A DNA stretch of 64,000 nt from contig NZ_CP036525.1 in assembly GCF_007741535.1 (NCBI RefSeq), positions 3,162,001 to 3,226,000 of the forward strand, read 5' to 3'. This document shows, piece by piece, positions 29,440 to 47,718 of the stretch (position 1 is its first letter; each line of letters opens with the position of its first letter). The DNA is from Rubripirellula lacrimiformis (GTDB lineage Bacteria > Planctomycetota > Planctomycetia > Pirellulales > Pirellulaceae). The notes under the pieces were generated by a model. The model saw only the letters and a list, made by a program, of their open reading frames with translations, was not told where the DNA came from and searched no databases. Position numbers and translations under genes: made by a program.

Positions 29440-30674
29440 GATGCTGCTCCCGCCATCATGGAGATGAGCTGAAATAGGCTGGAAAAGAAACCGTATCCGT
29501 ACATCAGCACAGCCGCAGCCAGCATCAGTACCAATGCGGGAAACACGATGCTCATCAACCAGCGTAGGTTGGCGTGCGCGTCACGAACCGTCTGGCCCGC
29601 CATGTTCCGCAGCAACTGCGCGGTGCGAACCGGCGATGCGCCCTCTAGCCAGGCGGCTTCGGACGAACCGATCCATCCGGTTTGGTGGATGGAATCGGCG
29701 GGCGTGCGCCCCTGTTCGATCAGTTCCATCGCTCGCTGCAACGATCGACGTTCGTACCGCCGTACCGAAATCAGGTGTCCCACGGCCAGCGCCCGGCCCA
29801 TCGGCCAACCCGCATCGATCGCATCGGCCAGTCCATTGAGCACTTCGGATTTGTGTTGTGCTAGCCGTGGGGTGATCGGGAACCACATTGGCAATCGCCA
29901 ACCCAGGATCGTGCCGCGGCTCATGATCGGAACGATGATCAGTACGACGAAGCTTAAGAAAAACAGAATCCAGTACGCCGGTCGGGCTGACATCAGCCAG
30001 CGGTCTTTCATGTCCATACCGAATTCCTCGAACATCACTTCCAAGGTTGGAACGATGAACAAGGCCATGAAGCTTAACACCAAGCACGTGATCGAAGCGG
30101 TTACGACCAAGTACAGGAATTGGCCGTAGACCGGCATCCAGCCACTGTCGATCGAATTGGCCGACATGTTGTAGATGTCGTCGGATCGTTCGATGCGGTC
30201 GATGGACGCCACCAGAGCGCTCTCCGGTAGACCGATGGGCTTCCGATCCAGATCGCTTTCGCCCGATTCGATACCACCAAGCTTGGACGGGTTTGGCTTG
30301 GGCGGAATCGGAGACTGCATGGCGACGGCCGTCCCCAGTTGCAAGGGGACACGCGAACGTGCTGCCGCTTCGATCGGATCTTGCCCCATCATCAATCGAC
30401 GGGCGTATTCGTAACAGGGTCCCGCAAGCGGGCCTGATCTGGAAAACGCAACCGCCACTTTGGAGATCGCTCCGTCGTGATGGCAAACCGCGCGGACGGT
30501 CGAATTGAATGCTCGCGTTGCATTGAGGTGTCGTCGGGACGCAAAGTCCATCACACCGAACACCAACAATGTCACCAGTACCAACCCGAATAGCGACGGC
30601 AAGAGGTACACGAAGCAAAGTAGTGTCAGCAGGACCAGGAGTGTCCAGACAACAATTCGAAGTGTGCGATTCAT
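29436..30674 (-). CDS. GspF-like inner-membrane platform protein
   Basis: The protein has 412 residues. An N-terminal hydrophobic pair (residues about 5-45) is an addition. The T2SSF body follows, with YLVVTASITCLVLSFMALFIVPTLEVMFEEFGMDM (35 residues at about 190-225; Phe-Gly-Met is typical), a second span at about 240-262 and a final span near the C-terminus. The platform protein normally couples a cytoplasmic ATPase to pilin assembly. The next gene downstream overlaps by 4 bp. Confidence 0.85.
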   Translation of the reverse strand: MNRTLRIVVWTLLVLLTLLCFVYLLPSLFGLVLVTLLVFGVMDFASRRHLNATRAFNSTVRAVCHHDGAISKVAVAFSRSGPLAGPCYEYARRLMMGQDPIEAAARSRVPLQLGTAVAMQSPIPPKPNPSKLGGIESGESDLDRKPIGLPESALVASIDRIERSDDIYNMSANSIDSGWMPVYGQFLYLVVTASITCLVLSFMALFIVPTLEVMFEEFGMDMKDRWLMSARPAYWILFFLSFVVLIIVPIMSRGTILGWRLPMWFPITPRLAQHKSEVLNGLADAIDAGWPMGRALAVGHLISVRRYERRSLQRAMELIEQGRTPADSIHQTGWIGSSEAAWLEGASPVRTAQLLRNMAGQTVRDAHANLRWLMSIVFPALVLMLAAAVLMYGYGFFSSLFQLISMMAGAAS

Positions 30675-30719
30675 GCCAGCCTCGCTGAATGTGGTTCGAT
30701 CCGTGCAAACGACAACGAT

Positions 30720-31529
30720 CTAAAATCCATAATCATTGACCATCTTCCCTACCATTTTCCACATCCAACCCAGCGTGGCGGAGATGGATATCCAAATCAA
30801 AAGACCAGCCAAAAGCGTCGCAAAGGTTGGCACGCAGTGGGTCAGTAGCATCAGTCGTCGACGGGCGACGTCGACAAAGTGCTCTGCCGCCAATTGCCAT
30901 TGATGGTCGGGCTGTGTTTCGCCCGATTCCAACATCAATTCCAACATCGCAGCGTCGCCCCGGTGATAGACCCCTGGCAGCACGGGCGGCTTGCCACTTT
31001 CGACTCGTATCGCCGCGTTCAGTAGCCATCGCTGGCTGTCGCAGCGACGCATGCTTTGGGCTGCGGTGCGGAAGGCATCCGGATAGGTGCAGCCCAGGGC
31101 CAGTAGTCGAGATACCGCATGGCTGGCCAAGGACCAATCCAACGCAGAGGCGGCGGAGTTCATCCCGGGGAATCGTCCCGAAAGCCAACCGATGATTCCA
31201 CCGATCAAGAGCACGGCCGAGATCAAACCTAGGAACCACGGGGCGTAACGAATCGTCGCTGTCGAGACCGCATCGCTTGCAAATTGACCGTCGAAAATGC
31301 CACGCATGCTCTCTGTCATCATGAATGCGATGGCGGTGCTGATCAGGGACGCAGCGGTCAGCATCAGCCAACCTGAAAGCAGGCACCAGGTCGCGCGGCG
31401 ACGCATCGACGCTAATTCACGACGCTGTTCCAGCCACTGGATTACCGCAACCGAATCTCCGTTGGATCGCGACAGTGACTCTGCGACCGAGTCTGATTTT
31501 TGAGTGTTCAACGATTGGAAACCTACCAC
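30720..31529 (-). CDS. Divergent GspF-like membrane protein
   Basis: I chose the GTG at 31529, which overlaps the preceding stop by 7 bp and has GCAGGTGG upstream; longer frames to 31637 would overlap the neighbour by over 100 bp. The 269-residue product has two spans near residues 50-75 and 90-115, a helical cytoplasmic domain (LDWSLASHAVSRLLALGC, MLELMLESGE) and a final span (FATLLAGLLIWISISATLGWM). The layout is that of a single T2SSF domain. Confidence 0.75.
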   Translation of the reverse strand: MVGFQSLNTQKSDSVAESLSRSNGDSVAVIQWLEQRRELASMRRRATWCLLSGWLMLTAASLISTAIAFMMTESMRGIFDGQFASDAVSTATIRYAPWFLGLISAVLLIGGIIGWLSGRFPGMNSAASALDWSLASHAVSRLLALGCTYPDAFRTAAQSMRRCDSQRWLLNAAIRVESGKPPVLPGVYHRGDAAMLELMLESGETQPDHQWQLAAEHFVDVARRRLMLLTHCVPTFATLLAGLLIWISISATLGWMWKMVGKMVNDYGF

Positions 31530-32524
31530 TGTGCCACCTGCTTGTAGATTGGGGCGATGACCCACCAAGCGTACGACAAGACGAAGCCGCAGCCGATCAG
31601 AATCATCACTGCGCGTGGAACCAGACGCGACCAGCAATAGATCGCGCGCTGGGCTGCTTCGGCATGATGAGCGCCCAAGTAATACAGTCGGGCTACCAGA
31701 ATGGATGGTTCCCGTGTTGTCGGTGAACTTTCGCCATCCGGCTTGGGCGACGAAGCATGCTGGATGAATTCAACTTGTCGTTCGATGTCGGCCAATGTGT
31801 TCGACTGACCGATCAATCGAGCCACCGCGGGGGTGTCCAAAGTCGGCTGGTCGATCGATGCTAGTTGCCTTTCGCCAGCCAAGCGGGCCGCCAAGCTGAT
31901 CGCATCGCTTTCGGGAACATTGCCGCGGATTTGGTCTGCTAGCGAGAAAAAGAAGAGGCTGCGCCGTGAATGGTAGGGCAACGCACTCTGGCCTCGCAGG
32001 AACAAAAACCACAGCACCAATGCGATGGCCAGAACGATCAGCGGAGGAATCCAATAGTTCGTGCTGAGCCACTGCAGCGACGTTGTCAGCCAAGGTGCCC
32101 AGTGAAAATCTCGTCCCCGATTCTGTAAAACCAAGGGCGCGGCCACCCACACCATCGATGCATAGGCAATCGAGGCCAGCAACAGCGGATAGAAATACGC
32201 GATCCGGCTGGCCCCTAAGTACTGGTCACGGCGGCGGAGCTGGTCTGCCAATCGGGCGATCAGACGGCCGTCCCCGCGGGCCGACGCCGCAGCAATCGCA
32301 GCTTGCAACTGAATCGTCACGGGGGATGCGATTTCGGAAATCGCCTCCTCCAGCGATTCGCCGCGATCCAATCGCAATGCGATCGCGCCGGCGACGCGTC
32401 CGACCTTGCCCATTCGTCGATTCTGAAGACGGCGCAGTGTCTGGTCGATCGGGTCCCCCACCTGGATGGCACAAGCGATCTCGTCGATCAGTCCGGCCAG
32501 TTGGAGGTCAGTGAGTTTGGTCAT
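31523..32524 (-). CDS. GspF-like membrane protein, first gene of the pseudopilin operon
   Basis: The 333-residue protein opens with a cytoplasmic T2SSF-like helical bundle (LIDEIACAIQVGDPIDQTLRRL, IALRLDRGESLEEAI, AAASARGDGRLIARLADQL), followed by spans at about 108-130 and 160-182. A long C-terminal helical domain and a final span (VMILIGCGFVLSYAWWVIAPIY) complete it. It heads the operon of seven overlapping genes running to 26916. No GspE/PilB ATPase or secretin is encoded in the window. Confidence 0.82.
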   Translation of the reverse strand: MTKLTDLQLAGLIDEIACAIQVGDPIDQTLRRLQNRRMGKVGRVAGAIALRLDRGESLEEAISEIASPVTIQLQAAIAAASARGDGRLIARLADQLRRRDQYLGASRIAYFYPLLLASIAYASMVWVAAPLVLQNRGRDFHWAPWLTTSLQWLSTNYWIPPLIVLAIALVLWFLFLRGQSALPYHSRRSLFFFSLADQIRGNVPESDAISLAARLAGERQLASIDQPTLDTPAVARLIGQSNTLADIERQVEFIQHASSPKPDGESSPTTREPSILVARLYYLGAHHAEAAQRAIYCWSRLVPRAVMILIGCGFVLSYAWWVIAPIYKQVAQW

Positions 32525-33378: not shown

Positions 33379-33984
33379 ATGCCACCGATTCCAGAAACGA
33401 CCGATTCCGCGCCTTCGATGCTGACGCGTTCAGATCAATCGTTGGTTCGGATGGTTCGTGATGGTGACGAACATGCGGCCAGTCAGTTGTATGATCGTTA
33501 TGCCCGGCGGGTGCTCGGTTTGGTCGATGCAAAGTTGGGCTCGAAGTTACGGGTTAGCACGGAACCGGAAGACATCGTTCAATCAGTTTTTCGCAGTATG
33601 TTTCGCGGTGTACAGACCGGGAACTACGATGCCCCGCCCGGAAAGACGCTTTGGAACTTGTTGGCGATCATCGCGGTCAGCAAGTTGCGCGATCAGGCCA
33701 ATCGCCATTCGGCGCAGTGCCGCGACGCAAGTCGCAATGTTCGGCTGAGCGAGGATTCTCAGAATCTGGAGATCAACAATGATTCGCTGGAGTTTCTGAA
33801 GCTCTGTCTCCGCGAGACTTTGGAAACGCTTCGCCCGCTTGATCGCGAAGTCTTGACGTTACGGATTCAAGGGCACAGCATCGACGAGATCAGTCAATCG
33901 ATTTCACGCAGCCATCGGACGGTGGAGCGGATGCTGCAAAAGAGTCGGCAACGTTTGGCGGACATGCTTTTAAGCGACGATTAG
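33379..33984 (+). CDS. ECF-type RNA polymerase sigma factor
   Basis: The protein is 201 residues from the ATG at 33379 (a TTG precedes it). Region 2 includes ASQLYDRYARRVLGLVDAKL and EPEDIVQSVFRSMFRG. Region 4 is LRPLDREVLTLRIQGHSIDEI followed by a helix-turn-helix ending RSHRTVERMLQKSRQRL; each is the expected ECF signature. The type is the planctomycete class usually encoded beside a Ser/Thr kinase, which follows here after 316 bp. No anti-sigma factor is present, so control may come through the kinase. It probably drives its own downstream genes. Confidence 0.92.
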   Translation: MPPIPETTDSAPSMLTRSDQSLVRMVRDGDEHAASQLYDRYARRVLGLVDAKLGSKLRVSTEPEDIVQSVFRSMFRGVQTGNYDAPPGKTLWNLLAIIAVSKLRDQANRHSAQCRDASRNVRLSEDSQNLEINNDSLEFLKLCLRETLETLRPLDREVLTLRIQGHSIDEISQSISRSHRTVERMLQKSRQRLADMLLSDD

Positions 33985-34300
33985 CACCGCCATTGGCTGT
34001 GGTTTCGTCGCTGCGTTTCGGTTTTGGGGCGCATTTCAGTGAGGGGCACATCGAATCGACCGTCGAATTGCACCATGAAATAGGGGGGCATCTTCGATCG
34101 GGGCAACGGTTGGGTGATCACGGGTGTCGCCGTGCAGGTGTCTTGGGCACCGGTGCAGCGGCATCATTCTTGGGGCTTTAGAAAAACATTGGTTTGTGCT
34201 GCAATTTCGTGGCGGACCAGTCCCGCCTCCATCGCTTTCCTGTGCAAGCGAATGTGGATCTGCGCATCGCAGGCACATTGACGTCAACCTTAGACAAAGC
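33985..34300. other. Leader region between sigma factor and kinase (316 bp)
   Basis: The kinase frame is open back to 34124, but those residues are Cys-rich and unlike the family. I see no hairpin or repeat. An extra promoter for the kinase may be here. Confidence 0.4.
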
Positions 34301-37300
34301 ATGCTCCAGACTAGCCGTATCATGATCGACGTCGATTCGCTCGATGATGACGCTGAAACGACAATCGATCAGTTTGAATCGAACTGGACCGCTGATGGTG
34401 ACTTCGCGGTCCAGACGCTATTGGATAGGCATCGAGACGAGGATCGGTTAGCGGTGCTGACCGAGTTGATTCGAATCGATATCGACCTGCGGAATGAAAA
34501 CCGGGTTCCCTTTTCGCTAGACAGCTACACCGGTCTGTATCCGGAATTGCTGCATCATCCACATCGGATGTTGGCGATTGCGTTTGAAGACTTTCGGTCG
34601 CGCCGTCGCTGTGGCCTAGAGATTGACGTGTCACGCTGGGGGGAACTTCCGGGGATCGAACATGAACCGTGGTTTCGCGATTCGTTTGCGCGGCATGTCG
34701 ATTCGGTTGGTTCATCGAATGCCAATCTGCACGCGGTGAGGCTGGATCAAGAGGTCGAAGCCGGTCTGCTGGAGATCGGATTTCACATTGTCAAACAGAT
34801 TGGTGAAGGTGCGTTCAGTCAGGTTTTTCTAGCGACCCAGGGGCATTTAGCGGATCGCTACGTGGTGCTGAAGATCTACCAAAAATCGCTCAGCGAGCCA
34901 GAGAGCATGGCGCTGATGCAGCACACCAACATCGTGCCGATCTATTCCTGTCACCAAGTCGGTGCCATGTCAGTGATCTGCATGCCGTACGCGGGCCGAA
35001 CCACCCTGGAAGATGTGTTTCGATCGGCCTTCAGCAACAGTGTCGTTCGCAACGGCGAGAACCTGGTATCCGCCGTGCGTGATCGAGTCAGTCCTGCGAA
35101 GGGGCAGGCCACTGAATCGGACAGTTTGCTCGTCCAAGCCGTTAGCGAATCTGTAAGTCCTGCAAATCATTCCAGCGATCAACCCTTGGGGGGTGGTTCG
35201 GGTTCCGTGGCTTGGGGGCAGAGTCACCAGGGCCGCTACGACGATGGCGCATCGCTGGATTGGGCGGGATCGGGGAATGCATCGGCCAGGACGGCGCCGT
35301 CCAGCCCTGCGTCGGAAGAACAGTCGGTGATGAGCCCCCTGGATCAGCTTCGTTCATTCACGAGCAACGAACTGACCACGTACTTGTTCGAACGGCTGAC
35401 TTCGGCCCTGTCGCACGCTCATGCTCGCGGGATCCTGCACGGGGACATCAAGCCCGCCAACGTGTTGATTCGCAATGATGGCGAGCCGGCCTTGCTGGAC
35501 TTCAATCTGTCGCACCGCGTCAATGATGAACGCCCGCGGCACGCAGGTGGGACTTTGCCGTACATGGCTCCGGAGGATCTGCGGTCCATGTTGGGGCATT
35601 CGCCGATCGCCGAGGTGTCGTCTGACATCTATGCGATGGGAATGATGATGTATCAGTTCGCAACCAACCGCTTTGCCTTCCCACCCCCGCGGACCGCCGA
35701 ACCCAAGGATATCGAACAGGCGATCGCCGGGCGAAATGCCGAAGTCCAGTGGGCTGCCGGCGACCAAGTCGACGGCGGCCTGCGATTGATCATCGAGAAG
35801 GCATTGGCGTTTGATCCGATCGATCGGTATCAGTCTAGCGAGCAGATGCATCGCGATCTGCTGTCGCATTCCCATGGACTGCCCTTGGTGCACTGTCGCG
35901 AACCGATTCGAATCCGCGCCCGCAAATGGTTGGTTCGCTATCCCGCGTTGACCTCCGGTGCAGCCGTCGGTTTGATGTTCTTGGCCCTGTTGGTGCCTTT
36001 GGCCGGGACTGCGGTCGTGTACCGCCAACGAGCCGATCACGCGGCGATTACCAAACAAATTGCTCGATTCCAAGCTGAATCAAACGACAGTTTGGCGAAA
36101 ATGATGGCCGATCCGACCCAGCGAAACGATGAAACGGTCGTCAGCGGTCTGGACCCCTTGATCGAAGTCGGTGCGTTCAGTGGGAATGCGGTGACCGATC
36201 GGCGTTTAGGATCGTTAGCGGCCGACGCAAAGGCGACCTTCCTGGATGGGCTACTGCGTCATGCTGTGATGGTAGGGTTCTTCGAATCCGATCGATTGGC
36301 AGTGCAGTTGAATGACGGTCCCTTGGATAGCGAGGCGTTGATCCGTTTGGATCAATTGATCAGGATTGCCGAACAAGCCAGCACGCCTGGGAATTCACGG
36401 GCGACGCTGTACTTGAAGGCCCAAAGGTCTCGTTTGGCCGGCGACCAGAAAGCATCCGATCGGTTCCGCAGCCAGGCCCGGAAAATTTCGCCCAAGTCAG
36501 ACACCGAACGTTTCCTGGAAGCGGTGCGGTTGATGAAGAAAGAAAATTGGGAAGAAGCCAATGACATTTTTACGGCGCTGGCTGACCACGGGACAATTCC
36601 GCCGGAACTTCGCTGGACCAGTTTAGCGCGTGCTCAATTCAGCCAACGTGACTATTCCGCAGCTGCCATCTCTTTCACCCAGTCGCTGGAACGGGCTCCG
36701 GAATCATCGCGACTTTGGTTGCTGCGAGGCCTCTGTTATCTGCAGTTGTCGCAGGGGGAACGAGCCGTCGAAGACTTCACCGCAGCGATCAAGTTCAACC
36801 CTAGCAACTGGAAGGCGTTGACCAATCGCGGCTTGGTTTCGATGAACCGTGGCAACCCTGCCAGTGCGGTCGAAGATTTTACCGAGGCGGCCAAGCACGC
36901 ACCCGATCGCGGCCACATTCTGTTGCTGCGTAGCCGGGCCTATCGCAAGCTGGGCAACACGGCCGCAGCCGATGACGACTTGGCCGAGGTGATGAAGTCC
37001 GACAAACTGTCGGCACGTTCATTGTTGTCACGCGCCCAAGCACAAATGGAATCGGACCCCGAGGCCGCACTGCAGGATCTGTTGCAGGCGGCTCAGTTTG
37101 ATCCCAACTCGGCGACCGTGTTGGCGAGCACCGCGTCTCTGTTGGCCTTGGAACTTCATCGTGATGAAGAAGCGATTGAATATCTAGATCGCTTGATCTT
37201 GATGCAGCCCGAAAACGAACGCGCTCGGATCGATCGTGCCGTGTTGCTATCGCGAGTCGGTCGATACGACGAGGCGATCACGGATATGAATCTGGCGATC

Positions 37301-37558
37301 GAATCGCCCAACGCTGCACGCACTTTGTACCAAGCCGCCTGTGTCTGCGCTCTGCAGCCTCAGAAGACTTGGCACATCCGTGGGCTGACCTATTTGGCTC
37401 AAGCGATCCAGCAAGGATACCAAGCTGATCATCTTGCAACCGATTCGGACCTGGACTCGCTTCGTGCTCTTCCGGGACTGCAGTCGATTAGTCGTACGTA
37501 TTGGTTGGCCAACCGCCTGAACAATGTCAGCCCCAATTCACAGCCCCTCCTCCCTTAG
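34301..37558 (+). CDS. Membrane-anchored Ser/Thr protein kinase with TPR sensor domain (atypical active site)
   Basis: From ATG 34301 (alternative 34322) the protein is 1085 residues. A helical N-terminus (1-160) leads to the kinase: glycine loop IGEGAFSQVFLA (167), VVLKIY with Lys191, then a roughly 100-residue Ser/Gly-rich insert (about 247-346) between the lobes. The catalytic loop is HGDIKPANVLI (380), with Gly for the Arg of HRD. The metal loop is DFNLS (400), with Asn for the Gly of DFG, and MAPEDL closes the activation segment. One membrane span lies at 550-573, and the remaining 500 residues are TPR repeats on the outer side. Asp and Lys are kept, so activity is likely but without the usual RD control. 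The next start is 20 bp downstream, so it shares a transcript with the surface protein. Confidence 0.88.
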   Translation: MLQTSRIMIDVDSLDDDAETTIDQFESNWTADGDFAVQTLLDRHRDEDRLAVLTELIRIDIDLRNENRVPFSLDSYTGLYPELLHHPHRMLAIAFEDFRSRRRCGLEIDVSRWGELPGIEHEPWFRDSFARHVDSVGSSNANLHAVRLDQEVEAGLLEIGFHIVKQIGEGAFSQVFLATQGHLADRYVVLKIYQKSLSEPESMALMQHTNIVPIYSCHQVGAMSVICMPYAGRTTLEDVFRSAFSNSVVRNGENLVSAVRDRVSPAKGQATESDSLLVQAVSESVSPANHSSDQPLGGGSGSVAWGQSHQGRYDDGASLDWAGSGNASARTAPSSPASEEQSVMSPLDQLRSFTSNELTTYLFERLTSALSHAHARGILHGDIKPANVLIRNDGEPALLDFNLSHRVNDERPRHAGGTLPYMAPEDLRSMLGHSPIAEVSSDIYAMGMMMYQFATNRFAFPPPRTAEPKDIEQAIAGRNAEVQWAAGDQVDGGLRLIIEKALAFDPIDRYQSSEQMHRDLLSHSHGLPLVHCREPIRIRARKWLVRYPALTSGAAVGLMFLALLVPLAGTAVVYRQRADHAAITKQIARFQAESNDSLAKMMADPTQRNDETVVSGLDPLIEVGAFSGNAVTDRRLGSLAADAKATFLDGLLRHAVMVGFFESDRLAVQLNDGPLDSEALIRLDQLIRIAEQASTPGNSRATLYLKAQRSRLAGDQKASDRFRSQARKISPKSDTERFLEAVRLMKKENWEEANDIFTALADHGTIPPELRWTSLARAQFSQRDYSAAAISFTQSLERAPESSRLWLLRGLCYLQLSQGERAVEDFTAAIKFNPSNWKALTNRGLVSMNRGNPASAVEDFTEAAKHAPDRGHILLLRSRAYRKLGNTAAADDDLAEVMKSDKLSARSLLSRAQAQMESDPEAALQDLLQAAQFDPNSATVLASTASLLALELHRDEEAIEYLDRLILMQPENERARIDRAVLLSRVGRYDEAITDMNLAIESPNAARTLYQAACVCALQPQKTWHIRGLTYLAQAIQQGYQADHLATDSDLDSLRALPGLQSISRTYWLANRLNNVSPNSQPLLP

Positions 37559-37578
37559 AATTTTGCAGATCCGCCTTT

Positions 37579-39609
37579 ATGAAACGTTCGACGCGTCGCA
37601 CGAAAAACCAACGCACTTCGCTGGAGACACTGGAGGCCCGCGACTTGCTGGCAGCCTTCGGAACACCCTGGCCCGAGGCTCGCGATCTATCTATCAGTTT
37701 CCCTGCTGATGAAGTCGCGATCGGCGAATACGAAAATGACATCCGTCAGACCCTGGATGCCGCCGATCAGCAGCAATGGCAAGAATTGGCATTGCGCGCC
37801 TATCAGACCTGGGCGATCCATGCGGACATCAATGTCGGACTGCGAAACGATTTCGACGTTTCGTTTGGTGCTGCAGGCTTGATGAATCAAGATCCGCGAT
37901 TTGGCGAGTTTCGCATTGGTGCGTTTCCGCAAGACGGATTGATGGCCAATTCGCTGCCGTTCCAGGTGGCCGCAGGAACCTACTCGGGTGATTTGCTGCT
38001 GAATTCGAATCAGGACTATCGTCTGTACGATTGGCCCGATTCGGTTGCCCCTGACCTGTCGACCTGGGACGAAGGACAGCGAGACCTGTTCAGCGTCCTG
38101 CTGCACGAAGCCGGCAATACGCTTGGCGTGGACGACAACCAGATGGAATGGTCGGTGATGTTCGGCCAGTACACGACGCCCAAAGGCGTCTTGGCCCCGG
38201 AAGACATCGGCGAAATCCAACAACTGTACGGGATGCGCAGTGACCCCTACGAATCGGTCACCAACGATCAATTGGCGACCGCCACGATCATCCCCATCCC
38301 GATCGGTTTTGCGCCGGCATCAGAAACGATTCGCACGCGCGGTAGTATCGCGTCGGCCAACGATGTGGACCACTTCCGATTCTCCCCGGTCCCCGGTTCC
38401 AATTCGGTCACGATTCGATTGAATGCGGAAGGGATCAGTTTGCTAGAGTCGCAGATAGAGGTCACCTTGGCGGACGGCACGGTGGTTGCCCAAAGCATGG
38501 CCGCCAGCGTGTTTGAAAACGATCATCAGGTCGAATTGACGGGGCTTGGTGTCGGATCGGATCTGTTCGTGAAAGTGACTGCTGCGGATTCCGATAGTCT
38601 CTATTCAATCGGTGACTACGTTCTGGAACTGGACTATCGCGACGCTGCTGTGCAAAGTCAGGACATCGTTCCAGGCGACTACCAATCAGGCGCCGATTCG
38701 CTGTACTCGGGGTTTGATCTGCTAGATCTCGAAACGGATGTTTCGACGACCGCATCGGCGATCGAAATCGATGCACACGATTCAATCGATGAACGATTCG
38801 AAATCCAATCTTCGGTAGGGTCAGCTTCCGATGTGGATGTGTGGAAGGTCGTGGCGCCGTCCACATCGCAACAGCGTTTGATCGTTAGTTTGGCCGGTGT
38901 CGGAAGTGGATCGCCCGACTTGGACCTGTACGTCGTTGACGATCAGGGTCAGTCGGTAGGGACTACGGCGCGACTTCGTCCGGATGGAACATGGACAGTC
39001 GAAGTCAACCAACCGACCGCAGGACAGGAGTACTTTATCCGTGTCAGCGTCGATCCGGGCTCGGCGGTCGAAGTCGGCAACTATGTCGCGGTCGCTGAAT
39101 TTGTGTCACCGCCGGCGCAGATGAATGATTTGATTTCCGGTGATGTTGACGCAACGGTCGATGAATTTTTCCGCTGGACTGCTTCGAAGTCCAAGTTGTT
39201 CCGATTCGATTTCAGTGCATTTGGTGCTGCGGCCGGTGACGGCGCTCGACTGCGGATTTACGACGCCCATACGCACGAAATTCGTCTGGTCATCGGCGCT
39301 CAAAACGACATGACACGCACCGGAATGGCTTGGTTGCAGCAGGGCGACTACGTGCTTCGCTTCACCGCCTTTTCGGCTGATGATCAATCGGTCGCACCGA
39401 TTCAGTTCACGCTGACTTGTGACGGCATCTCGGACGATCAAGACGAAACGGGATACGACCCCGACAATGATCCCGATTACGATCCGTACACGTACGAATA
39501 CACTTACCACGACTACGGGTACTACTATTCGAACTACGAGTACTACTACGACTGGGACTATTACTACCAGTACGACGGCGATCCGAACTACGCGCACTAC
39601 TACGAGTAG
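37579..39609 (+). CDS. Exported matrixin-like pseudoprotease with PPC-type domains and Tyr/Asp tail
   Basis: From ATG 37579 the protein is 676 residues. The N-terminus is a planctomycete export motif (basic run, then LETLEARDLLAAFG). Residues about 35-205 resemble an M10/matrixin metallopeptidase: HEAGNTLGVDD at 176, an SVMFGQY Met-turn, and LAPEDIGEIQQLYG closing the fold. Two of the three zinc His are replaced, by Asn and Asp. Residues about 230-340 and 400-510 look like pre-peptidase C-terminal domains (DVDHFRFSPVPGSNSVTIRL, DVDVWKVVAPSTSQQRLIVSL), and a third domain follows. The last 54 residues (39445-39606) hold 21 Tyr among Asp, Glu and Pro. It is encoded 20 bp after the kinase and 94 bp before a sulfotransferase. 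Surface binding or structural role is inferred. Confidence 0.82.
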   Translation: MKRSTRRTKNQRTSLETLEARDLLAAFGTPWPEARDLSISFPADEVAIGEYENDIRQTLDAADQQQWQELALRAYQTWAIHADINVGLRNDFDVSFGAAGLMNQDPRFGEFRIGAFPQDGLMANSLPFQVAAGTYSGDLLLNSNQDYRLYDWPDSVAPDLSTWDEGQRDLFSVLLHEAGNTLGVDDNQMEWSVMFGQYTTPKGVLAPEDIGEIQQLYGMRSDPYESVTNDQLATATIIPIPIGFAPASETIRTRGSIASANDVDHFRFSPVPGSNSVTIRLNAEGISLLESQIEVTLADGTVVAQSMAASVFENDHQVELTGLGVGSDLFVKVTAADSDSLYSIGDYVLELDYRDAAVQSQDIVPGDYQSGADSLYSGFDLLDLETDVSTTASAIEIDAHDSIDERFEIQSSVGSASDVDVWKVVAPSTSQQRLIVSLAGVGSGSPDLDLYVVDDQGQSVGTTARLRPDGTWTVEVNQPTAGQEYFIRVSVDPGSAVEVGNYVAVAEFVSPPAQMNDLISGDVDATVDEFFRWTASKSKLFRFDFSAFGAAAGDGARLRIYDAHTHEIRLVIGAQNDMTRTGMAWLQQGDYVLRFTAFSADDQSVAPIQFTLTCDGISDDQDETGYDPDNDPDYDPYTYEYTYHDYGYYYSNYEYYYDWDYYYQYDGDPNYAHYYE

Positions 39610-39632
39610 GCCGTTATTTGTTGCCAAACTAT

Positions 39633-39667
39633 CCGGTCACGCCAAACGATTCTGTTTGCGTGACCGG
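39633..39667 (+). terminator. Strong stem-loop after the surface protein gene
   Basis: A 14-bp stem (ccggtcacgc plus caaac against gtttg plus cgtgaccgg, one bulged C) with a 6-nt loop lies 24 bp after the stop. There is no T run, so it may cut or protect the message between this gene and the sulfotransferase rather than end it. Confidence 0.6.
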
Positions 39668-39702
39668 AGCCTGTTCCGTTGTTCTCCTGTTTGATCGTAT
39701 CT

Positions 39703-41796
39703 ATGCCGACGTCCATTTCTTTTAGCCCCGCTACTTTGAATCTGCTATTGGACGAAGCCGTGGGGGCCGTGCCGGGGACCCTGCCCGACGCGCGGCAAAA
39801 GATGATCAACGATGGTTTGCGTCGATCACGAAGCCAGCGTCCAGACGAAAATTCCCTGGTGGCTGCTGCCATCATCGATTTGATCAGCGACGTGAAGGGC
39901 GTTGGGAACGTTTCGAAGGTGCGATTAGCGGACATCGAAAGTGATTCGGCTCTGACCTGTCATGTCGCAGGACTGTGCGCGATTGCTTCCCAGGATCTTG
40001 CCGACGCTCAGCGACTTCTGGACCGCGCTGTCCGAATTGATCCCAATCGAATCGCATGCTGGACGCTGTTGGGGCGATTGGCCAGCGAGTTTAACCAACC
40101 CGAATTAGCAGTGAAGTACCATCAGCGTGCCATTGTGATCAGCGATTGCGGTGGCGAGTCGGATCTTGAATTGGCTCGAATCCATGCGCAAAACGGCCGG
40201 CTAAAGGATGCCATTCACACGCTGCGAGTTGCCTTGATGAGCGATCGGAATCATCCGGCGATCAACCGCGCTCTGGCCCAATTGCTGAGGCGGCGGGCCA
40301 TGATGTTGGGACGCCAGAACAAGCGACTGGCACGTCACAAAATTTTGGAAGAACGGCTTCAGTGCCTGCAGGCGGCCAATCGCGCAGCCCCCCGAAGCGA
40401 TAGCTATCTTCGACAAGGGCGTTTGGAATCGCGGTTAGAACATTTCGAGCAGTCGCGAGTTTCGTTCCAACGTGCACTCGATTTGGATCCGAAGTCCGAG
40501 CAGGCAATCACTCACCTGGCCAGCGCCAATGTGGATGATGGAAAGATCCCCGAGGCGATTGATCAGTTCCAGCAAGCATTGAAACTGAATCCGAACCATG
40601 CCGTGACCCATTTTCGCTACACGCGGGCAAAGCGGTTTACGAACGACGAGGAAACGGGTCGCTACATCGATCAACTTCGCGAACGCCTAGAGGTCGCAGA
40701 CCTTCCCGCCCGAGATCGCATCTTTTTGCACTTCGCTGTGGCTAAGGTGTTTGACGACATCGGTAAGTATGACGACGCGTGGCTGCACTACGATATCGCC
40801 AACCGCTTGAAACCTGGACATCACGCGACCATCGCGACTCCCTCTACCCATCGGCGTCCGGCGGACGGTGCGACAGGGCAATCTTCGGCCGGGCGGTCTG
40901 CCCCGCCGCAAACTTCCGTCACCGAATCGGATCCGCAGTCAAAGACAAATTCCAAGCACAATCCGCTGCAGAAGATCGCCGATGACGCGATGCGGTTTTT
41001 CACGAGGGAATTCTTCGCCAACAATGGCAAGCTAGGAGTTGTCCGTCCTGACTTGACGCCGATCTTTGTCATCGGCATGCCGCGTTCAGGTACGACATTG
41101 ACCGAGCAGATATTGACCAGCCATCCGTCGATCGCGGGCGCTGGTGAATTGAAGGCGGTCAATCAGATGCGGCGCACGATCGAACATGAAGTTCGTCTGG
41201 CAAACCCGGAACTGCCGAAATCGGCGACCGGCTATCCGGATGCATTGATGCACCTTCCGAGCTTCGAACTGCAGCGGTTGGCCAATCAATACCTCGACAT
41301 TCTGTCACCGTTTTGCAATACCGAAACTTTTGTGACCGATAAGATGCCGACGAACTTCATGCATCTAGGACTGCTGTCACTGTTGTTTCCGAACGCCAAA
41401 TTCGTGCATTGCAAACGCGACCCGATGGATGTTTTGGTTTCCTGCTTTTGCCAAAACCTGAATCCGCCGTTCTGTGACTTGGAAACATTAGCTGGGTATT
41501 TTCGCCGATACCAAAAGATGATGGTTCACTTCGAAAGTGTGCTTCCCATTGCGATCCACAGTGTCCAGTACGAACAGACCGTGACGGAACCCGAGTCAAC
41601 CGCGCGGCAGTTGATCCAGTACTGTGGCCTGGACTGGGATCCGGCCTGTTTGTCGTTTCACGAAAACAGTCGCTCGGTTCGCACGCCTAGCAAATGGCAG
41701 GTGCGTCAACCGATGTACACGTCATCGATCGGCAAATGGAAGCGATTCGAAAAGCACCTGCAAACGGTAGCTGATTTAGTAGCGACAACCGATTGA
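39703..41796 (+). CDS. TPR-repeat sulfotransferase (Sulfotransfer_3 type)
   Basis: The ATG at 39703 gives 697 residues; an upstream TTG at 39679 is less likely. The N-terminal half has TPR pairs (LLDRAVRIDPNRIACWTLLGRL, AIDQFQQALKLNPNHAVTHF). The C-terminal half is a sulfotransferase: the 5'-phosphosulfate loop FVIGMPRSGTTLTEQILTSHP, a nearby GAGEL whose Glu aligns with the catalytic Glu of tyrosylprotein sulfotransferases, and the 3'-phosphate site FVHCKRDPMDVLVSCF. The PAPS donor is expected in the cytoplasm; no signal peptide is seen. This architecture is common in planctomycetes and the acceptor is usually unknown. Here it follows the Tyr/Asp-tailed protein in the same direction. Confidence 0.88.
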   Translation: MPTSISFSPATLNLLLDEAVGAVPGTLPDARQKMINDGLRRSRSQRPDENSLVAAAIIDLISDVKGVGNVSKVRLADIESDSALTCHVAGLCAIASQDLADAQRLLDRAVRIDPNRIACWTLLGRLASEFNQPELAVKYHQRAIVISDCGGESDLELARIHAQNGRLKDAIHTLRVALMSDRNHPAINRALAQLLRRRAMMLGRQNKRLARHKILEERLQCLQAANRAAPRSDSYLRQGRLESRLEHFEQSRVSFQRALDLDPKSEQAITHLASANVDDGKIPEAIDQFQQALKLNPNHAVTHFRYTRAKRFTNDEETGRYIDQLRERLEVADLPARDRIFLHFAVAKVFDDIGKYDDAWLHYDIANRLKPGHHATIATPSTHRRPADGATGQSSAGRSAPPQTSVTESDPQSKTNSKHNPLQKIADDAMRFFTREFFANNGKLGVVRPDLTPIFVIGMPRSGTTLTEQILTSHPSIAGAGELKAVNQMRRTIEHEVRLANPELPKSATGYPDALMHLPSFELQRLANQYLDILSPFCNTETFVTDKMPTNFMHLGLLSLLFPNAKFVHCKRDPMDVLVSCFCQNLNPPFCDLETLAGYFRRYQKMMVHFESVLPIAIHSVQYEQTVTEPESTARQLIQYCGLDWDPACLSFHENSRSVRTPSKWQVRQPMYTSSIGKWKRFEKHLQTVADLVATTD

Positions 41797-41952: not shown

Positions 41953-43059
41953 TCATTTTCGCGTGGAAAATTTGAAGATCGTAGTCGTGTCGTAGGTGTC
42001 GCCCGGTTCTAGAATGGCGGACGGAAAGTTGGGCTGATTCGGACTGTCGGGGTAGTGTTGAGTTTCCAGACAGAACCCGCCACGGTGTTCGTAGGTTTTG
42101 CCGGATTTGCCCTTCAATCGCCCGTCCAGAAAGTTTCCGCAATAGAACTGGATTCCAGGTTCGGTCGTGGTGATTTCCATCACGCGTCCGGTGGTCGGTT
42201 CGAACACGGTTGCCGCCAATCCCATTTCGCCTAGCGGTTTGTCGATGACGAAATTGTGGTCATAGCCGAGACCAAACTTCAGTTGTTGGTCGTCTTGTTC
42301 AACGTCACGGCCGATTGCTTTGGAATCAGTGAAATCAAACGGTGTTCCAGTCACGCTGGGGATGTCGCCAGTGGGGATCAGGCTTTCATCAACCGGTGTG
42401 TAGGTTTTGGCGTTCAGCATCAGTTCGTGATCCAGGATGGTCCCCTCCCCTTCGCCTTTCAGGTTGAAATAGGTGTGTTGGGTTAGGTTGATGGGAGTCG
42501 CCTTGTCCGTCGTGGCGTGATAGTGGACGGACAATTCGTTTGCGTCCGTCAACTTGTAGGTGACCTTGATCTGTAGGTTTCCTGGATAGCCTTCTTCCAT
42601 GTCTTTGGCCAAATACGAAAGCTCCAGTCCTCGGTAGCCTTTGCCATGGATGGGGTTCGCATCCCAAACGACTTTGTCGAATCCGATCACACCGCCGTGC
42701 AAATGGTTGGTGTTGTTGTTGGTGGCCAGCGAGTACTCGGTGCCGTCGATCGAAAACTTGCCTTTGGCGATGCGGTTGCCATAACGGCCAACGATGGCGC
42801 CAAAGTAGGGTTTGTCGACTGCGTTGATGTAGTCTTCGACGCGGTTGTAGCCAAGTGTCACATCGCCCAGTTTTCCGTCTCGATCCGGGACCGAGATCGA
42901 TGTCACGATCGCCCCGTAGTTCGTGATCGTCACCCTCATGTCGGACTTGTTGACCAGCGTGTACAGCTTGATCGAATCAAAATCGCTGACGATCATTTGG
43001 GCGCGGGCTGGACCGGCAAGTGCGAATGCCAAGCCAACTGCGAAAACGAAACTCTTCAT
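41953..43059 (-). CDS. galM: Periplasmic aldose 1-epimerase (mutarotase)
   Basis: The protein is 368 residues from ATG 43059, with a signal peptide (FVFAVGLAFALAGPARAQ). Mutarotase features are GRYGNRIAKGKF, NHLHGG, SVHYHATTDKATPINLTQHTYFNL (24 residues at about 170-193, including the catalytic His), LGYDHNFV, and FCLETQHYPDSPNQ with the catalytic Glu. It converts alpha and beta anomers of hexoses such as glucose or galactose. Secreted forms process sugars released by outer hydrolases, which suits this genome. It stands alone. Confidence 0.93.
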   Translation of the reverse strand: MKSFVFAVGLAFALAGPARAQMIVSDFDSIKLYTLVNKSDMRVTITNYGAIVTSISVPDRDGKLGDVTLGYNRVEDYINAVDKPYFGAIVGRYGNRIAKGKFSIDGTEYSLATNNNTNHLHGGVIGFDKVVWDANPIHGKGYRGLELSYLAKDMEEGYPGNLQIKVTYKLTDANELSVHYHATTDKATPINLTQHTYFNLKGEGEGTILDHELMLNAKTYTPVDESLIPTGDIPSVTGTPFDFTDSKAIGRDVEQDDQQLKFGLGYDHNFVIDKPLGEMGLAATVFEPTTGRVMEITTTEPGIQFYCGNFLDGRLKGKSGKTYEHRGGFCLETQHYPDSPNQPNFPSAILEPGDTYDTTTIFKFSTRK

Positions 43060-43272
43060 TAGATTTCCAAGGGGAGGTGGGAAAGTGGCGATCGTTGGCA
43101 GTGCCTGCCCACGATCCACTGACAGTGGGTCCGATGAATTTTAGTCAGCGGTTCGACCCAACAGTTTCGTCCCCCAGGCGTTCAGAAACAATGAGACGGG
43201 GCCTGTCAGCATTGAGTTTCTTTGCTGAATCGCAGCTTGGGTCCGGAACGGTTCACCCGCGAAACATCGCTC

Positions 43273-43800
43273 TTAGGCGTTCGCGTTGGCGGCTATGACG
43301 ACGGTGGGGGGAAGGCCCGCGAGCCAGCGAAGAAGCTGCTGGCGGAAGACCTGGGCTGTGGCGCCCTCGGTTCGCCAGTTTGCCGTCGAATCATCAGCGA
43401 TTCGCTGCGTTTTCGCGACCCATTGCGATAGTGATCGGAGAATGTCGGTGATGGTTTCGTCATCAAGATCCTGGTGGACCATCGAAACCCGCCCGCCGCG
43501 GTTCGGGCGGACGAGTTCCACCAGTCGACCGTGCTGGGCAGCGAATCGTCGATCCTGCCAAAACACGCGGCGTAGCTGGTGCTGTTGATTGAATTGAAAG
43601 ACAGGTGCCACACCGCAGTACAGGCTGACCTGGCCCATCTGGCGAAATCCGATGACGATCGGGGATCCATCGACCAGGACTTCCCCTCGGATCGGCATGT
43701 TTTTGCCTTCACGGATTAGGTCTTCGCGGTCGTGCTCGTGGATTGCCATCGCATCATCATGATGTTCGTTGGCTGGGATTGCAATTCGATGTGCCATCAT
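43273..43800 (-). CDS. Hypothetical protein of unknown function
   Basis: From ATG 43800 (a second ATG follows at once) the protein is 175 residues. It starts MMAHRIAIPANEHHDDAMAIHEHDRE, with many His in the first 25 residues. The middle has beta strands (GEVLVDGSPIVIGFRQMGQVSLYCG) and the end an amphipathic helix with RRVFWQ and RWLAGLPP. No signal peptide or membrane span is visible. I do not recognise the family. It follows the terminator of the Cys-rich protein, so it should have its own promoter. Confidence 0.6.
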   Translation of the reverse strand: MMAHRIAIPANEHHDDAMAIHEHDREDLIREGKNMPIRGEVLVDGSPIVIGFRQMGQVSLYCGVAPVFQFNQQHQLRRVFWQDRRFAAQHGRLVELVRPNRGGRVSMVHQDLDDETITDILRSLSQWVAKTQRIADDSTANWRTEGATAQVFRQQLLRWLAGLPPTVVIAANANA

Positions 43801-43819
43801 CAAGCAGCGATCAACCCAC

Positions 43820-43854
43820 AAAAAAAGAGCCACCAAGTGATCCAGGTGGCTCTT
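43820..43854 (-). terminator. Rho-independent terminator of the Cys-rich protein gene
   Basis: On the minus strand the hairpin aagagccacc / ggtggctctt (43854-43845 and 43834-43825) is followed by a T run given by the A residues at 43820-43826. Confidence 0.88.
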
Positions 43855-43885
43855 CGAAATTCGCTTCGTCTTGCAGTCCGAAAGA

Positions 43886-44512
43886 TCAGTTCTTGACCGG
43901 CTCTGGCAGTCGACGATTGTTCAAGTTGGGTGCTGGGGGAACTGTTTCGACGCTGATCGAATGCATTGGTGACACCTGTGATTGGGTGTAATCGGTCGAC
44001 AACACCGGGGATGCCATCGTAGGTCCGCCGGATGTTTCCGATGAACCATAGACGGTTCCGCTGTCGCATCCGCCTGCACAGCCAACCGAGCAACCACCCG
44101 CACAGTCAACTTTTTCGGCCGACCAAGTGTATTCGCATTCGGGGCACGTGTACTTTTTCTTCTTCAGTACTTTCACCTTGCGAATGGTAGCACCGTTGTT
44201 GACGCAGCTGCTGCAGCCGCGTCCATCACAGGAGCCGCAGGACTTGCAGGATTTGCGTTGCCAAGGGAATACGACGCGGGGGATGCAGATTGCTTTGGTT
44301 TCGACTTCGAAGCAAGACTTTTCGGCGTCGACTTCTTTTGCATCCAGTTTGCAGACGTGACTGCACTGGGGGCAGCAAGTGGCGCACTGGGCACAGCCCG
44401 AGCGGGTGCTTGAATGCAGGCCACATCCGGCCTGCGCCGGTGCCGACGTCAGAGTTGCGACGAACGCGATTGCAAAAGCGACGGCGGCACAGCAAGAGAA
44501 TTGGCGGATCAT
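43886..44512 (-). CDS. Secreted cysteine-rich protein
   Basis: The 208-residue protein has a signal peptide ending APAQAG and 20 Cys residues in the mature part, most before residue 150. They occur in clusters such as CAQCATCCPQC, CKSCGSCDGRGCSSC and CPEC-type pairs; the YTCPECEYTW piece resembles a rubredoxin or zinc-ribbon knuckle. The C-terminal 60 residues are Ser/Pro/Thr-rich. Similar proteins occur widely in planctomycetes without known function; a metal-binding or disulfide-crosslinked envelope role is possible. It is monocistronic, with a strong terminator. Confidence 0.8.
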   Translation of the reverse strand: MIRQFSCCAAVAFAIAFVATLTSAPAQAGCGLHSSTRSGCAQCATCCPQCSHVCKLDAKEVDAEKSCFEVETKAICIPRVVFPWQRKSCKSCGSCDGRGCSSCVNNGATIRKVKVLKKKKYTCPECEYTWSAEKVDCAGGCSVGCAGGCDSGTVYGSSETSGGPTMASPVLSTDYTQSQVSPMHSISVETVPPAPNLNNRRLPEPVKN

Positions 44513-44541
44513 GATTCTACCTAGGAATGATTTGGCACGTA

Positions 44542-44603
44542 AAAAGGTGTCCGGTTCCCTTTGGATGGTGTATCGAATTTAGAAAAGGTACCGGACCCCT
44601 TTT
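44542..44603. repeat. 21-bp inverted repeat (AAAAGG...CCGG type)
   Basis: aaaaggtgtccggttcccttt (44542-44562) and the complement of 44583-44603 match at 18 of 21 positions, separated by 20 nt. The core is GGTCCGGTACC-like. It lies between the porin stop and the upstream start of the Cys-rich gene, so may be a repeat element or a processed stem. Confidence 0.7.
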
Positions 44604-44616
44604 CGGTGATCGATCC

Positions 44617-46200
44617 CTAGAAATCGATCATGAATCGAGTGCCAAAGATGTTGTAGCGGCCTGATTCGGGACCACTGCCAGCGTCGCGGTCTTCGATTTC
44701 ACCGGCGATGTAGTTGAACTGCATGCGTGCGTTGGCGTTCCAGTGCCAATTCATGCCAAAGGTCCAAGAGTCACCAACTCCGCCAAGAATGTCTTCGTCA
44801 TTAAAGTCTGCATGAGAGTACCGCACAGCAACCTGCCAGGCTCCCCAGCCCGCATCCCGGCATCCGTCGCACTTGTCGACCAACCAGAAGTTTTGAAACG
44901 GTTTGACGCGTCCCAGAGTTCCGGATTCCCGATCCCAGGGCATGTGTTCGCCGGTCAGGAAATAGCTGGCGTAGACGTACCCGCCATCGAAGCGTGTGTC
45001 GTTGAATCCTTGGTCCCGACTTTGCCAAAGGCTTTGGTATTCGCCCACGACTTGGACGCGGCCCACATTGACGACACCTTCCAAGCCCATCAGGTCAAAG
45101 TAGTCAGCGCCATCGATTCGCCCGGTGTCGATCCAACGAGCGGATGATCGCGCCTCGGGGCGAGTTCGGAATCGGGCTTCGTTGGTTGCGTTGGTCGTCG
45201 AATCGGCGTGGCTACCAGAGATCGCCCAGTGGGCGTACCCGCGTCCGCCGCTGACTTCGTCGTACCAGATTGTGTTGGCAAGGCGGCCGGTGACTTCCAA
45301 TTGCAAATGGTCATCGATGTAGTTGCCCAGCGACTGAACATTGCGTTGGTTGTAAACGCCGTATCGCCAGTTCCACCGTTGGTTCTCCGAAACGCCATAG
45401 GATGCCAGTCCGAGACGTCTAGCGTCCTGGTTGATCGCTTCGATCACGAACGGGCGTTCCATGAACACGTTGTAACGTGAACTGTTCAGGTGGTCCAAAC
45501 CGTAGGGTCGTTTCTGGTTCCCCAGCAGCACGGTGCGTAGAACTGGCAAGTCGGTCCAGCCTAAATAGGCATCACGAAACTCGACGTTGCTACCGCCGGC
45601 GAACTCGGCCTCGATCTTGTACAGCATGTTGTCTTTGACCTTCCCCGACACGCCGAAACGCAATCGACGGAAGCCAAGACGGTTCTGAGGGTCGCCGCCG
45701 TCCATGAACGACGGGGCTGGGTCATCTTCGGTGTCGAAGCCCCATGCGTCAGCGTGGACTCGCCCGCTGATCTTCATGGTCGAATTGCTGCTGCCGCTAT
45801 GCACGATCGACTTGTCGCCGGCAACGTCGTCAACGGCTCCTTCGATCTTCTCTAGCTTCTTTTCCAGTTCAGCGAACTGCTTTGACAAAGCGGCGTACTT
45901 GTCGTCCTGGTCCGCGTCATCATCGTCGGCTGAATCGTCATCGGCGTTTGATTGGCCGACGTTTTCGTCCGGCGTGCCTTCTTCAGCGGCTTGGTCGGCC
46001 AGGTTGTTCGCCCACAGTGCAGATGAGTATCGCACGGGCACGACTTGTCCGGCGGTATCGAACTCTGGCAACATCATCGCTTGCGCCAACGAACTTTCGT
46101 CGGCCGTCGCGGTAGCGATCACCGTGAAAGGTGACGCTGCTCCCGAGATGCTTAGCAGTAGCATCAGCGCGCGGCGTACCGCACGTTTTGTATTCGCCAT
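44617..46200 (-). CDS. Phosphate-selective porin (OprO/OprP type)
   Basis: From ATG 46200 the protein is 527 residues with a signal peptide (ALMLLLSISGAASPF...ATA). After an acidic, Asp-rich linker a coiled coil (KYAALSKQFAELEKKLEKIEG) follows, as is common before planctomycete porin barrels. The barrel region starts at about residue 150 (MKISGRVHADAWGF, LGFRRLRFGVSGKV, NMLYKIEAEF) and ends with the C-terminal Phe (FMIDF) typical of outer-membrane proteins. It should allow phosphate or other anions across the outer membrane. PPK2 at 7.8 kb is the only other phosphate-linked gene here. Confidence 0.88.
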   Translation of the reverse strand: MANTKRAVRRALMLLLSISGAASPFTVIATATADESSLAQAMMLPEFDTAGQVVPVRYSSALWANNLADQAAEEGTPDENVGQSNADDDSADDDDADQDDKYAALSKQFAELEKKLEKIEGAVDDVAGDKSIVHSGSSNSTMKISGRVHADAWGFDTEDDPAPSFMDGGDPQNRLGFRRLRFGVSGKVKDNMLYKIEAEFAGGSNVEFRDAYLGWTDLPVLRTVLLGNQKRPYGLDHLNSSRYNVFMERPFVIEAINQDARRLGLASYGVSENQRWNWRYGVYNQRNVQSLGNYIDDHLQLEVTGRLANTIWYDEVSGGRGYAHWAISGSHADSTTNATNEARFRTRPEARSSARWIDTGRIDGADYFDLMGLEGVVNVGRVQVVGEYQSLWQSRDQGFNDTRFDGGYVYASYFLTGEHMPWDRESGTLGRVKPFQNFWLVDKCDGCRDAGWGAWQVAVRYSHADFNDEDILGGVGDSWTFGMNWHWNANARMQFNYIAGEIEDRDAGSGPESGRYNIFGTRFMIDF

Positions 46201-47436: not shown

Positions 47437-47571
47437 ATCCGCTGCGCTGATTCCCCGAACGCTTGTAGTGTGTTGCCAATTGGCGATTGGGACCAACCGG
47501 TTCCGCCACACGACACCGTTCGATGGCGAAGGCAAGCAAGTCACAGGTGCATGCCGGAACAGCGGCCCAAA

Positions 47572-47715
47572 AACTCGAACTCGAACTCGAACTCGAACTC
47601 GAACTCGAACTCGAACCCGAACCCGAACCCGTACCCGTACCCGTACCCGTACCCGTACCCGTACCCGTACCCGTACCCGTACCCGTACCCGTACCCGTAC
47701 CCGTACCCGTACCCG
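47572..47715. repeat. 24-unit hexanucleotide tract, G-quadruplex-forming on the minus strand
   Basis: On the plus strand: seven AACTCG units (47572-47613), three AACCCG (47614-47631) and fourteen TACCCG (47632-47715), in one unbroken 6-bp register. The minus strand therefore reads (GGGTAC)n followed by (GGGTTC) and (GAGTTC), giving 17 consecutive G3 runs with 3-nt loops. The tract starts 3 bp beyond the stop codon of the VWA protein gene, on its transcribed side. Confidence 0.97.
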
Positions 47716-47718
47716 ACG

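Follow-up and report, generated by a model that had tools for sequence, protein, structure and literature searches.

A TPR-sulfotransferase encoded beside a protein with an acidic tyrosine-rich tail in Rubripirellula lacrimiformis: a candidate tyrosine-sulfation pair

The window analyzed here is a 64,000-nt stretch of DNA from Rubripirellula lacrimiformis, with coordinates counted from its first letter. Four genes on its plus strand run in one direction and encode an ECF sigma factor, a kinase, a matrixin-like tailed protein, and a TPR-sulfotransferase (ST). The genes and the features within them are as follows.

33379..33984, +, ECF sigma factor (Pfam Sigma70_ECF, E 4.1e-17)
34124..37558, +, Hanks-type kinase with a membrane-like segment and C-terminal TPRs (Pfam Pkinase, 2.5e-31, and TPRs)
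37579..39609, +, tailed protein, 676 aa, probably exported (ATG start; 20 bp after the kinase; Peptidase_M10, 6.4e-7)
37621..37656, +, Planc_extracel-like N-terminal motif of the tailed protein, residues 15-26 (Pfam PF07595, E 0.067, 13.4 bits against a curated cut-off of 25.5 bits)
37987..38232, +, matrixin-like domain with the altered zinc site HEAGNTLGVDD (Pfam M10, E 6.4e-7; Foldseek)
39445..39606, +, acidic Tyr-rich tail, 54 residues, predicted disordered (21 Tyr, 14 Asp/Glu, 0 Lys/Arg)
39703..41796, +, ST, 697 aa (ATG start; 93 bp after the tailed gene; Sulfotransfer_3, 5.2e-47, and TPRs)
39949..40806, +, TPR superhelix of ST (helices 83-368 in the model; OGT TPR-like structural matches)
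40249..40398, +, basic TPR segment, residues 183-232, candidate tail-docking patch (charge comparison)
41035..41793, +, sulfotransferase domain, residues 445-697, with R461, E482, K547, and S663

The shared direction of the four genes agrees with an earlier sequence-only reading of this DNA, as does the 20-bp gap before the tailed gene; the second gap, given there as 94 bp, is 93 bp. The kinase start is uncertain (ATGs at 34304 and 34322 are also possible), and an alternative TTG start of ST is open at 39679. Seven flanking ORFs (29436-32524 and 41953-46245) were searched against Pfam. Three matched T2SSF, aldose epimerase, and porin families, one gave a sub-threshold match to Yip1, and the remaining three had no family. 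All seven lie on the opposite strand, and on these results the four-gene set stands alone.

The tailed protein combines a weak extracellular motif, a pseudo-matrixin domain, a beta-rich body, and the Tyr/Asp tail, as judged from Pfam and an AF2 model. The sequence-only reading had called it an exported protein. The planctomycete-type N-terminal motif supports this, although it scores below the Pfam cut-off, whereas no classical signal peptide is visible: no hydrophobic stretch was found near the N terminus (best 19-residue Kyte-Doolittle mean, 0.45). The protein is probably exported, and the lack of a classical signal peptide slightly lowers our confidence in the tyrosine-sulfation reading developed below. 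Karilysin and MMP-13 were among its best Foldseek rows. The M10 zinc site HExxHxxGxxH/D is not preserved, as Asn replaces the second ligand His; N180 and D186 of this domain are nearly invariant in 48 aligned proteins.

The tail described in the sequence-only reading, 54 C-terminal residues with 21 Tyr among Asp and Glu, was reproduced on counting. The body of the protein is 2.9% Tyr, compared with 21/54 in the tail, and AF2 pLDDT block means of 27-38 from residue 631 predict disorder. The background set consisted of 7578 ORFs of at least 80 aa from the window and 139 fetched loci, some of them overlapping (2.26 Mb). A rule of at least 12 Tyr plus at least 10 Asp/Glu per 50 residues selected 12 of these ORFs, and each of the 12 is this protein or an ortholog of it; the tail is not a chance product. 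A few other background ORFs are Tyr-rich, but with fewer acids. A DNA microsatellite origin of the tail was rejected, as Tandem Repeats Finder detected only a weak 2.7-copy array at the tail start.

The linkage of tail and enzyme was assessed in a census of 241 family genomes, with thresholds of E <1e-200 for ST orthologs and E <1e-140 with the homolog P0087 for the tailed-protein branch. ST orthologs were found in 17 genomes. The tailed-protein branch was found in 16 of these, and in the other (G383) a frame-broken copy of the gene adjoins ST; no genome had one gene without the other at these thresholds. Adjacency was read directly for these 17 STs of the tail-linked clade. Each adjoins the tailed gene, and each tailed protein ends in an acidic Tyr tail, with 12-25 Tyr per tail at the loci read. 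The sequence-only reading had named co-occurrence in other planctomycetes as a check, and at the thresholds used this linkage is exact in 17/17 genomes. Together with the Tyr tail and a predicted fold nearest to that of tyrosylprotein sulfotransferases (TPSTs), it supports the reading that ST sulfates its neighbor.

The kinase and a homolog of the tailed protein, usually with the sigma factor, also occur across the order without ST. Twenty-four ST-less loci were collected, and loci L042, L048, and L049 were excluded from this set for want of a clear kinase partner. The 21 loci with at least 1.3 kb downstream were judged, leaving out L041, L047, and L261, where the contig or stretch ends too soon; the 21 include loci at contig edges or without a seen sigma gene (L043, L142, L262), loci that share a genome (L034 and L046 among them), and one that is frame-broken (L138). 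Twenty of the 21 lack a Tyr tail. The exception is L035, where the tail is aromatic (12 Tyr and 7 acids per 50 residues) and no ST is nearby; its genome (G039) contains no Sulfotransfer_3 frame of TPR-ST size. In three family genomes (G344, G457, and G459), a sister form was found whose tail is rich in proline and poor in Tyr, and no tail-linked ST was found. G344 has six Sulfotransfer_3 matches, none of them in a frame of >521 aa.

The sequence-only reading had placed the sulfation pair under the sigma factor and the kinase. Both are co-located with it, the kinase at 17/17 ST-bearing loci and the sigma factor in the fetched stretch at 15/17 (the stretch of L260 ends too soon, and none was seen in L032). 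However, the sigma factor is also present at most ST-less loci, and both genes accompany tail-less, ST-less homologs, indicating that they form an ancestral core and are not part of the pair. The kinase has a membrane-like segment from residue 614 in the 34124 frame (Kyte-Doolittle, 2.35 at 614). Its gene ends 20 bp upstream of the tailed gene, as would suit a neighboring kinase that phosphorylates the tail Tyr residues. At many ST-less loci, however, the homologous kinase adjoins tail-less homologs, so the kinase does not track the tail. A kinase-driven tail was rejected on this ground, and we consider tail phosphorylation by this enzyme extremely improbable.

Database homologs of the tailed protein showed the same division (best 120 of 174, P0001-P0120). 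With the exception of the fragment P0084, P0001-P0087 all have C-terminal tails containing 8 or more Tyr, whereas the tails of P0089-P0120 have 0-14% Tyr, except P0097 with 14 Tyr in 61 residues. The sister group also includes P0105 (11 Tyr in 79). P0088 and P0091 (60% and 54% identity over part of the protein) lack a tail and look frame-broken. Mean tail Tyr is 31% in 81 of the 87 near homologs, which have 18 Lys/Arg in 4196 tail residues, compared with 7% in 31 of the 32 sister proteins (Mann-Whitney p 5e-16, a statistic that ignores relatedness). The lowest Tyr fraction, 0.12, stems from an anchor placed too far upstream. The anchor was not matched in the remaining six of the 87; five are Tyr-tailed by eye, and the sixth is P0084. 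In metagenomes, 24 of the 87 tailed proteins lie on contigs equal in size to a contig of one of the 55 best STs, a sign of linkage that is weak but points the same way.

When 47 bodies were placed in a tree, the rows with strong Tyr tails grouped as a single clade (24 rows, support 100/99); P0086 and P0087, which have Tyr tails, fall inside it, and L035 and P0097 fall outside. Tail and ST therefore appear to share a single origin, after which they would have been retained or lost as a pair. As the coupling comes from one branch, it represents one evolutionary event kept in many species and not independent repeats. A single origin would also be expected if the tail were a plain adhesive, cation-binding, or export-signal tail and ST a hitch-hiker through operon inheritance. 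The C termini of several sister proteins are aromatic and acidic, and L035, P0097, and P0105 have Tyr-rich tails without a known ST partner; some Tyr richness thus arises with no such partner known, which agrees with hitch-hiking and counts against tail sulfation. Hitch-hiking does not readily account for the persistence of ST and tail together across four genera (g1, g12, g45, and g53; names include Rubripirellula, Stieleria, and Crateriforma), given their patchiness in the window's genus, where both are present in 3 of 22 genomes and neither is present in 19 (some assemblies are incomplete). Nor does it fit a tail in which the sequence changes but Tyr persists and Lys/Arg are nearly excluded. 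We regard it as very unlikely.

ST matched Sulfotransfer_3 (PF13469) with 161.3 bits against a cut-off of 27, and several TPR models also scored above cut-off. Its AF2 model has a pLDDT of 90.4. No signal or membrane segment is evident in ST (best 19-residue Kyte-Doolittle mean, 1.44; the model helices are soluble), in accordance with the cytoplasmic location proposed by the sequence-only reading, and the enzyme should therefore act in the cytoplasm. TPSTs, in contrast, are Golgi-resident and have a membrane anchor, which was not found in ST by these measures. Among the structures compared, TPST is nevertheless the nearest solved structure to the catalytic domain, with human TPST1/TPST2 (PDB 5wri, 5wrj, and 3ap1) at 20-24% identity to ST. 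R461, E482, K547, and S663 align with R79, E100, K159, and S286 of TPST1; S286 was placed through the tick TPST alignment 8w5z and what we take to be the human numbering. The PAPS loops and a Glu matching the TPST catalytic Glu, both claimed from sequence, are thus present. The use of this Glu as an argument for tyrosine did not hold, since all four residues are invariant in 62 aligned TPR-STs and the Glu is common to every one compared.

The acceptor site was compared with TPST in part, covering R102, R106, and R285 (R123, in a poorly aligned stretch, was left out). The predicted fold is nearest to that of TPST, but these acidic-peptide arginines are not kept in the 34 STs of the tail-linked clade. 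The R102 position is K484, with Lys in 17/34; the R106 position is Q488 in the window ST, with Arg in 11/34; and the R285 position is P662, with Pro in 34/34. Filing ST as a TPST was rejected for this reason. The tails themselves also depart from the textbook TPST preference for an acid at -1 of Tyr. Within the Tyr-bearing core of the 81 tails, Asp/Glu directly follows Tyr 372 times, compared with 285 ± 11 in 500 shuffles, whereas Asp/Glu before Tyr is not enriched (276 versus 285). The shared catalytic residues, the unconserved arginines, and the acid after Tyr all count against tail sulfation. They are compatible with an enzyme that sulfates a glycan or small molecule working with the tailed protein, whose unsulfated tail would bind metal ions or the product. 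Carbohydrate sulfotransferases in marine bacteria are treated in a planctomycete genome paper (PMC4807772). However, a tail of net negative charge is unlikely to bind a sulfated glycan, the Pfam matches of the four genes include no glycosyltransferase, and the best structural matches of ST are TPSTs. We therefore judge a glycan or small-molecule acceptor to be unlikely.

The TPR superhelix also bears on the acceptor, since its basic segment suits an acidic polypeptide. Residues 183-232, a segment initially chosen by eye, have a mean net charge of +9.5 in the 34 tail-linked-clade STs and -1.0 in 28 others. The best 50-residue TPR window averages +12.7 in 57 tail-linked STs and +5.0 in 171 others, after 29 of 200 others were dropped because they had no recognized motif or too little TPR length; a few STs outside the clade reach +13 to +17. 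The other hallmarks of the tail-linked clade are the loop 584-592 (QNLNPPFCD in the window ST), R490, and K664. The genome has two APS kinase family matches, so that PAPS can be made if these are active.

Linkage, co-occurrence, tail make-up, predicted fold, catalytic residues, the basic segment, and the APS kinase family members form the basis of our proposal. We propose, with a probability of about 0.68, that this TPR-ST is a dedicated protein-tyrosine sulfotransferase for the neighboring tailed protein, which would be sulfated before export and would display an anionic tail. From these observations we infer Tyr as the acceptor, electrostatic docking, export and its order after sulfation, and a surface role. 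In the cytoplasm, the basic segment of the superhelix would capture the acidic disordered tail, and the TPST-like C-terminal domain would use PAPS to sulfate several of the 12-25 tail Tyr one after another. The tailed protein would then be exported, and its strongly anionic, heparin-like tail may act as a binding element at the surface or in the matrix, with Ca2+, polysaccharides, or neighboring cells as possible partners.

Protein tyrosine sulfation is already known from eukaryotes, to which it was earlier hypothesized to be restricted (PMC4216712), and from RaxX/RaxST in Xanthomonas. As described in two of the papers on that system, RaxST is encoded with its substrate, which is secreted after modification; this substrate, RaxX, is made as a 60-residue precursor, sulfated at one Tyr, and handled by the RaxAB type I system (PMC6637879, PMC4216712). 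Set against RaxST by description, the present enzyme is likewise encoded beside its candidate substrate. It differs in having a TPR region, a 676-aa partner with 21 tail Tyr, and a host from another phylum, and no type I secretion families (raxA/raxB-like) were found among the Pfam matches of the four genes and seven flanking ORFs. Compared with TPST1/TPST2, ST is bacterial, has ~440 extra N-terminal residues with the TPR superhelix, and apparently serves one dedicated neighbor substrate. Fibromodulin and osteoadherin are vertebrate matrix proteins, and we know of no dedicated linked enzyme in accounts of them. Like the tailed protein, which is probably extracellular, these small leucine-rich repeat proteins bear acidic Tyr-rich terminal extensions, in their case sulfotyrosine-rich N- and C-terminal ones that are a proposed heparin mimic (PMC7310474).

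In the open-licence literature, with subscription papers outside the scope, we found no report of Tyr-sulfated planctomycete proteins or sulfotyrosine, consistent with the statement in the sequence-only reading that no such planctomycete pair was known. As judged from the genes, a bacterial sulfotransferase that is linked to its candidate substrate, has a TPR docking design, and would act on many sites of one tail is probably new, and it suggests a bacterial route to many sulfates on one surface protein. If tail sulfation is correct, 12-25 candidate Tyr per tail would constitute a second and much heavier bacterial form than the single Tyr of RaxST/RaxX, and soluble tyrosine sulfotransferases that act at many sites would become available.

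TPR-containing Sulfotransfer_3 proteins with the same domain order as ST are widespread in bacteria. At least 80 distant TPR-ST loci (26-37% identity) lie in named bacterial genomes; none was recognizable as the tail-linked clade among the matches listed, and no ORF in 80 of these loci had 12 Tyr plus 10 acids per 50 residues. Neighbors were read at 23 order-level loci (L066-L078 and L145-L154), 21 of which have a TPR-ST outside the tail-linked clade. A neighbor with an LExRxLL-type N terminus lies within ~0.5 kb at 8 of the 21 (L066, L073, L074, L145, L147, L148, L149, and L150); none was found within the fetched stretch at the other 13. These neighborhoods suggest that planctomycete TPR-STs may commonly modify a partner. 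At two loci of G129 and in G133, ST is followed by proteins that reach at least 2894-3003 residues before the fetched stretch ends; they contain Asn-Asp-Tyr repeats and 6.8-7.5% Tyr. G312 has a divergent ST/repeat-protein pair with 4.0% Tyr. The neighbors at L073 and L150 have 1.2% and 0% Tyr, which speaks against a Tyr theme. Tentatively, and at somewhat less than even odds, TPR-STs may serve bacteria in general as a machinery for protein sulfation, each enzyme modifying an exported neighbor. The tail-linked clade would hyper-sulfate poly-Tyr tails via a basic TPR groove, and related clades would sulfate Tyr of giant Asn-Asp-Tyr-repeat proteins (G129, G133, G312, and the second TPR-ST of this genome). 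If so, planctomycetes would be covered by sulfotyrosine protein coats, in analogy to the matrix proteins that animals sulfate. The second TPR-ST gene of this genome (7534605-7536674) is followed after 36 bp by the gene of an LExRxLL-type protein in which YD-type repeats were noted by reading; an APS kinase match lies 5 kb upstream of this ST gene.

A second locus in the genome of Rubripirellula lacrimiformis also contains a TPR-sulfotransferase:

L066:3244-18999 (contig positions 7529243-7544998), second TPR-sulfotransferase locus.

This locus encodes an APS kinase match and the second TPR-sulfotransferase, which is followed at a distance of 36 bp by the gene for a giant LEDRRLLA-type protein that has YD-like repeats and runs past the end of the stretch. 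The sulfotransferase and giant protein are a possible second sulfation pair. Related TPR-sulfotransferases of ~830 to 900 residues were found in four further loci (L145, L147, L148, and L149), each adjoined by giant LExRxLLA-type proteins with Asn-Asp-Tyr repeats and 4.0 to 7.5% Tyr.

An aromatic tail is encoded at L035:7975-10053 (12 Tyr and 7 acidic residues within a run of 50, along with Phe and Trp), and no sulfotransferase was found within the fetched stretch. The Sulfotransfer_3 frames of the same genome (G039) are 305 to 419 residues long. An open frame at window 47470-47760, comprising Asn-Ser and then Pro-Tyr dipeptide repeats, is likely simple-sequence DNA.

The 676-residue protein carrying the 54-residue acidic Tyr tail contains the following domain:

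Window 37987-38232, forward strand, matrixin-like domain with an altered zinc site (HEAGNTLGVDD).

Judging from this motif, the domain of the Tyr-tailed branch looks like a pseudo-peptidase. Since several distant homologs (L017, L030, and L042) retain HExGHxLGxxH, loss of the zinc site seems to predate the Tyr tail. At L136 (genome G383), three frames share the tailed gene, and the Tyr tail and sulfotransferase frames remain open; this split is either an assembly error or a genuine break. A database protein of 885 residues (P0088) has TPR families and the matrixin domain and lacks the Tyr tail. It is perhaps the kinase C terminus joined to the tailed protein through a frame change.

The upstream Hanks-type kinase (window 34124-37558) has a single strongly hydrophobic segment, from residue 614, separating its kinase and TPR parts, a position suggesting that the TPR part may face the opposite side of a membrane.
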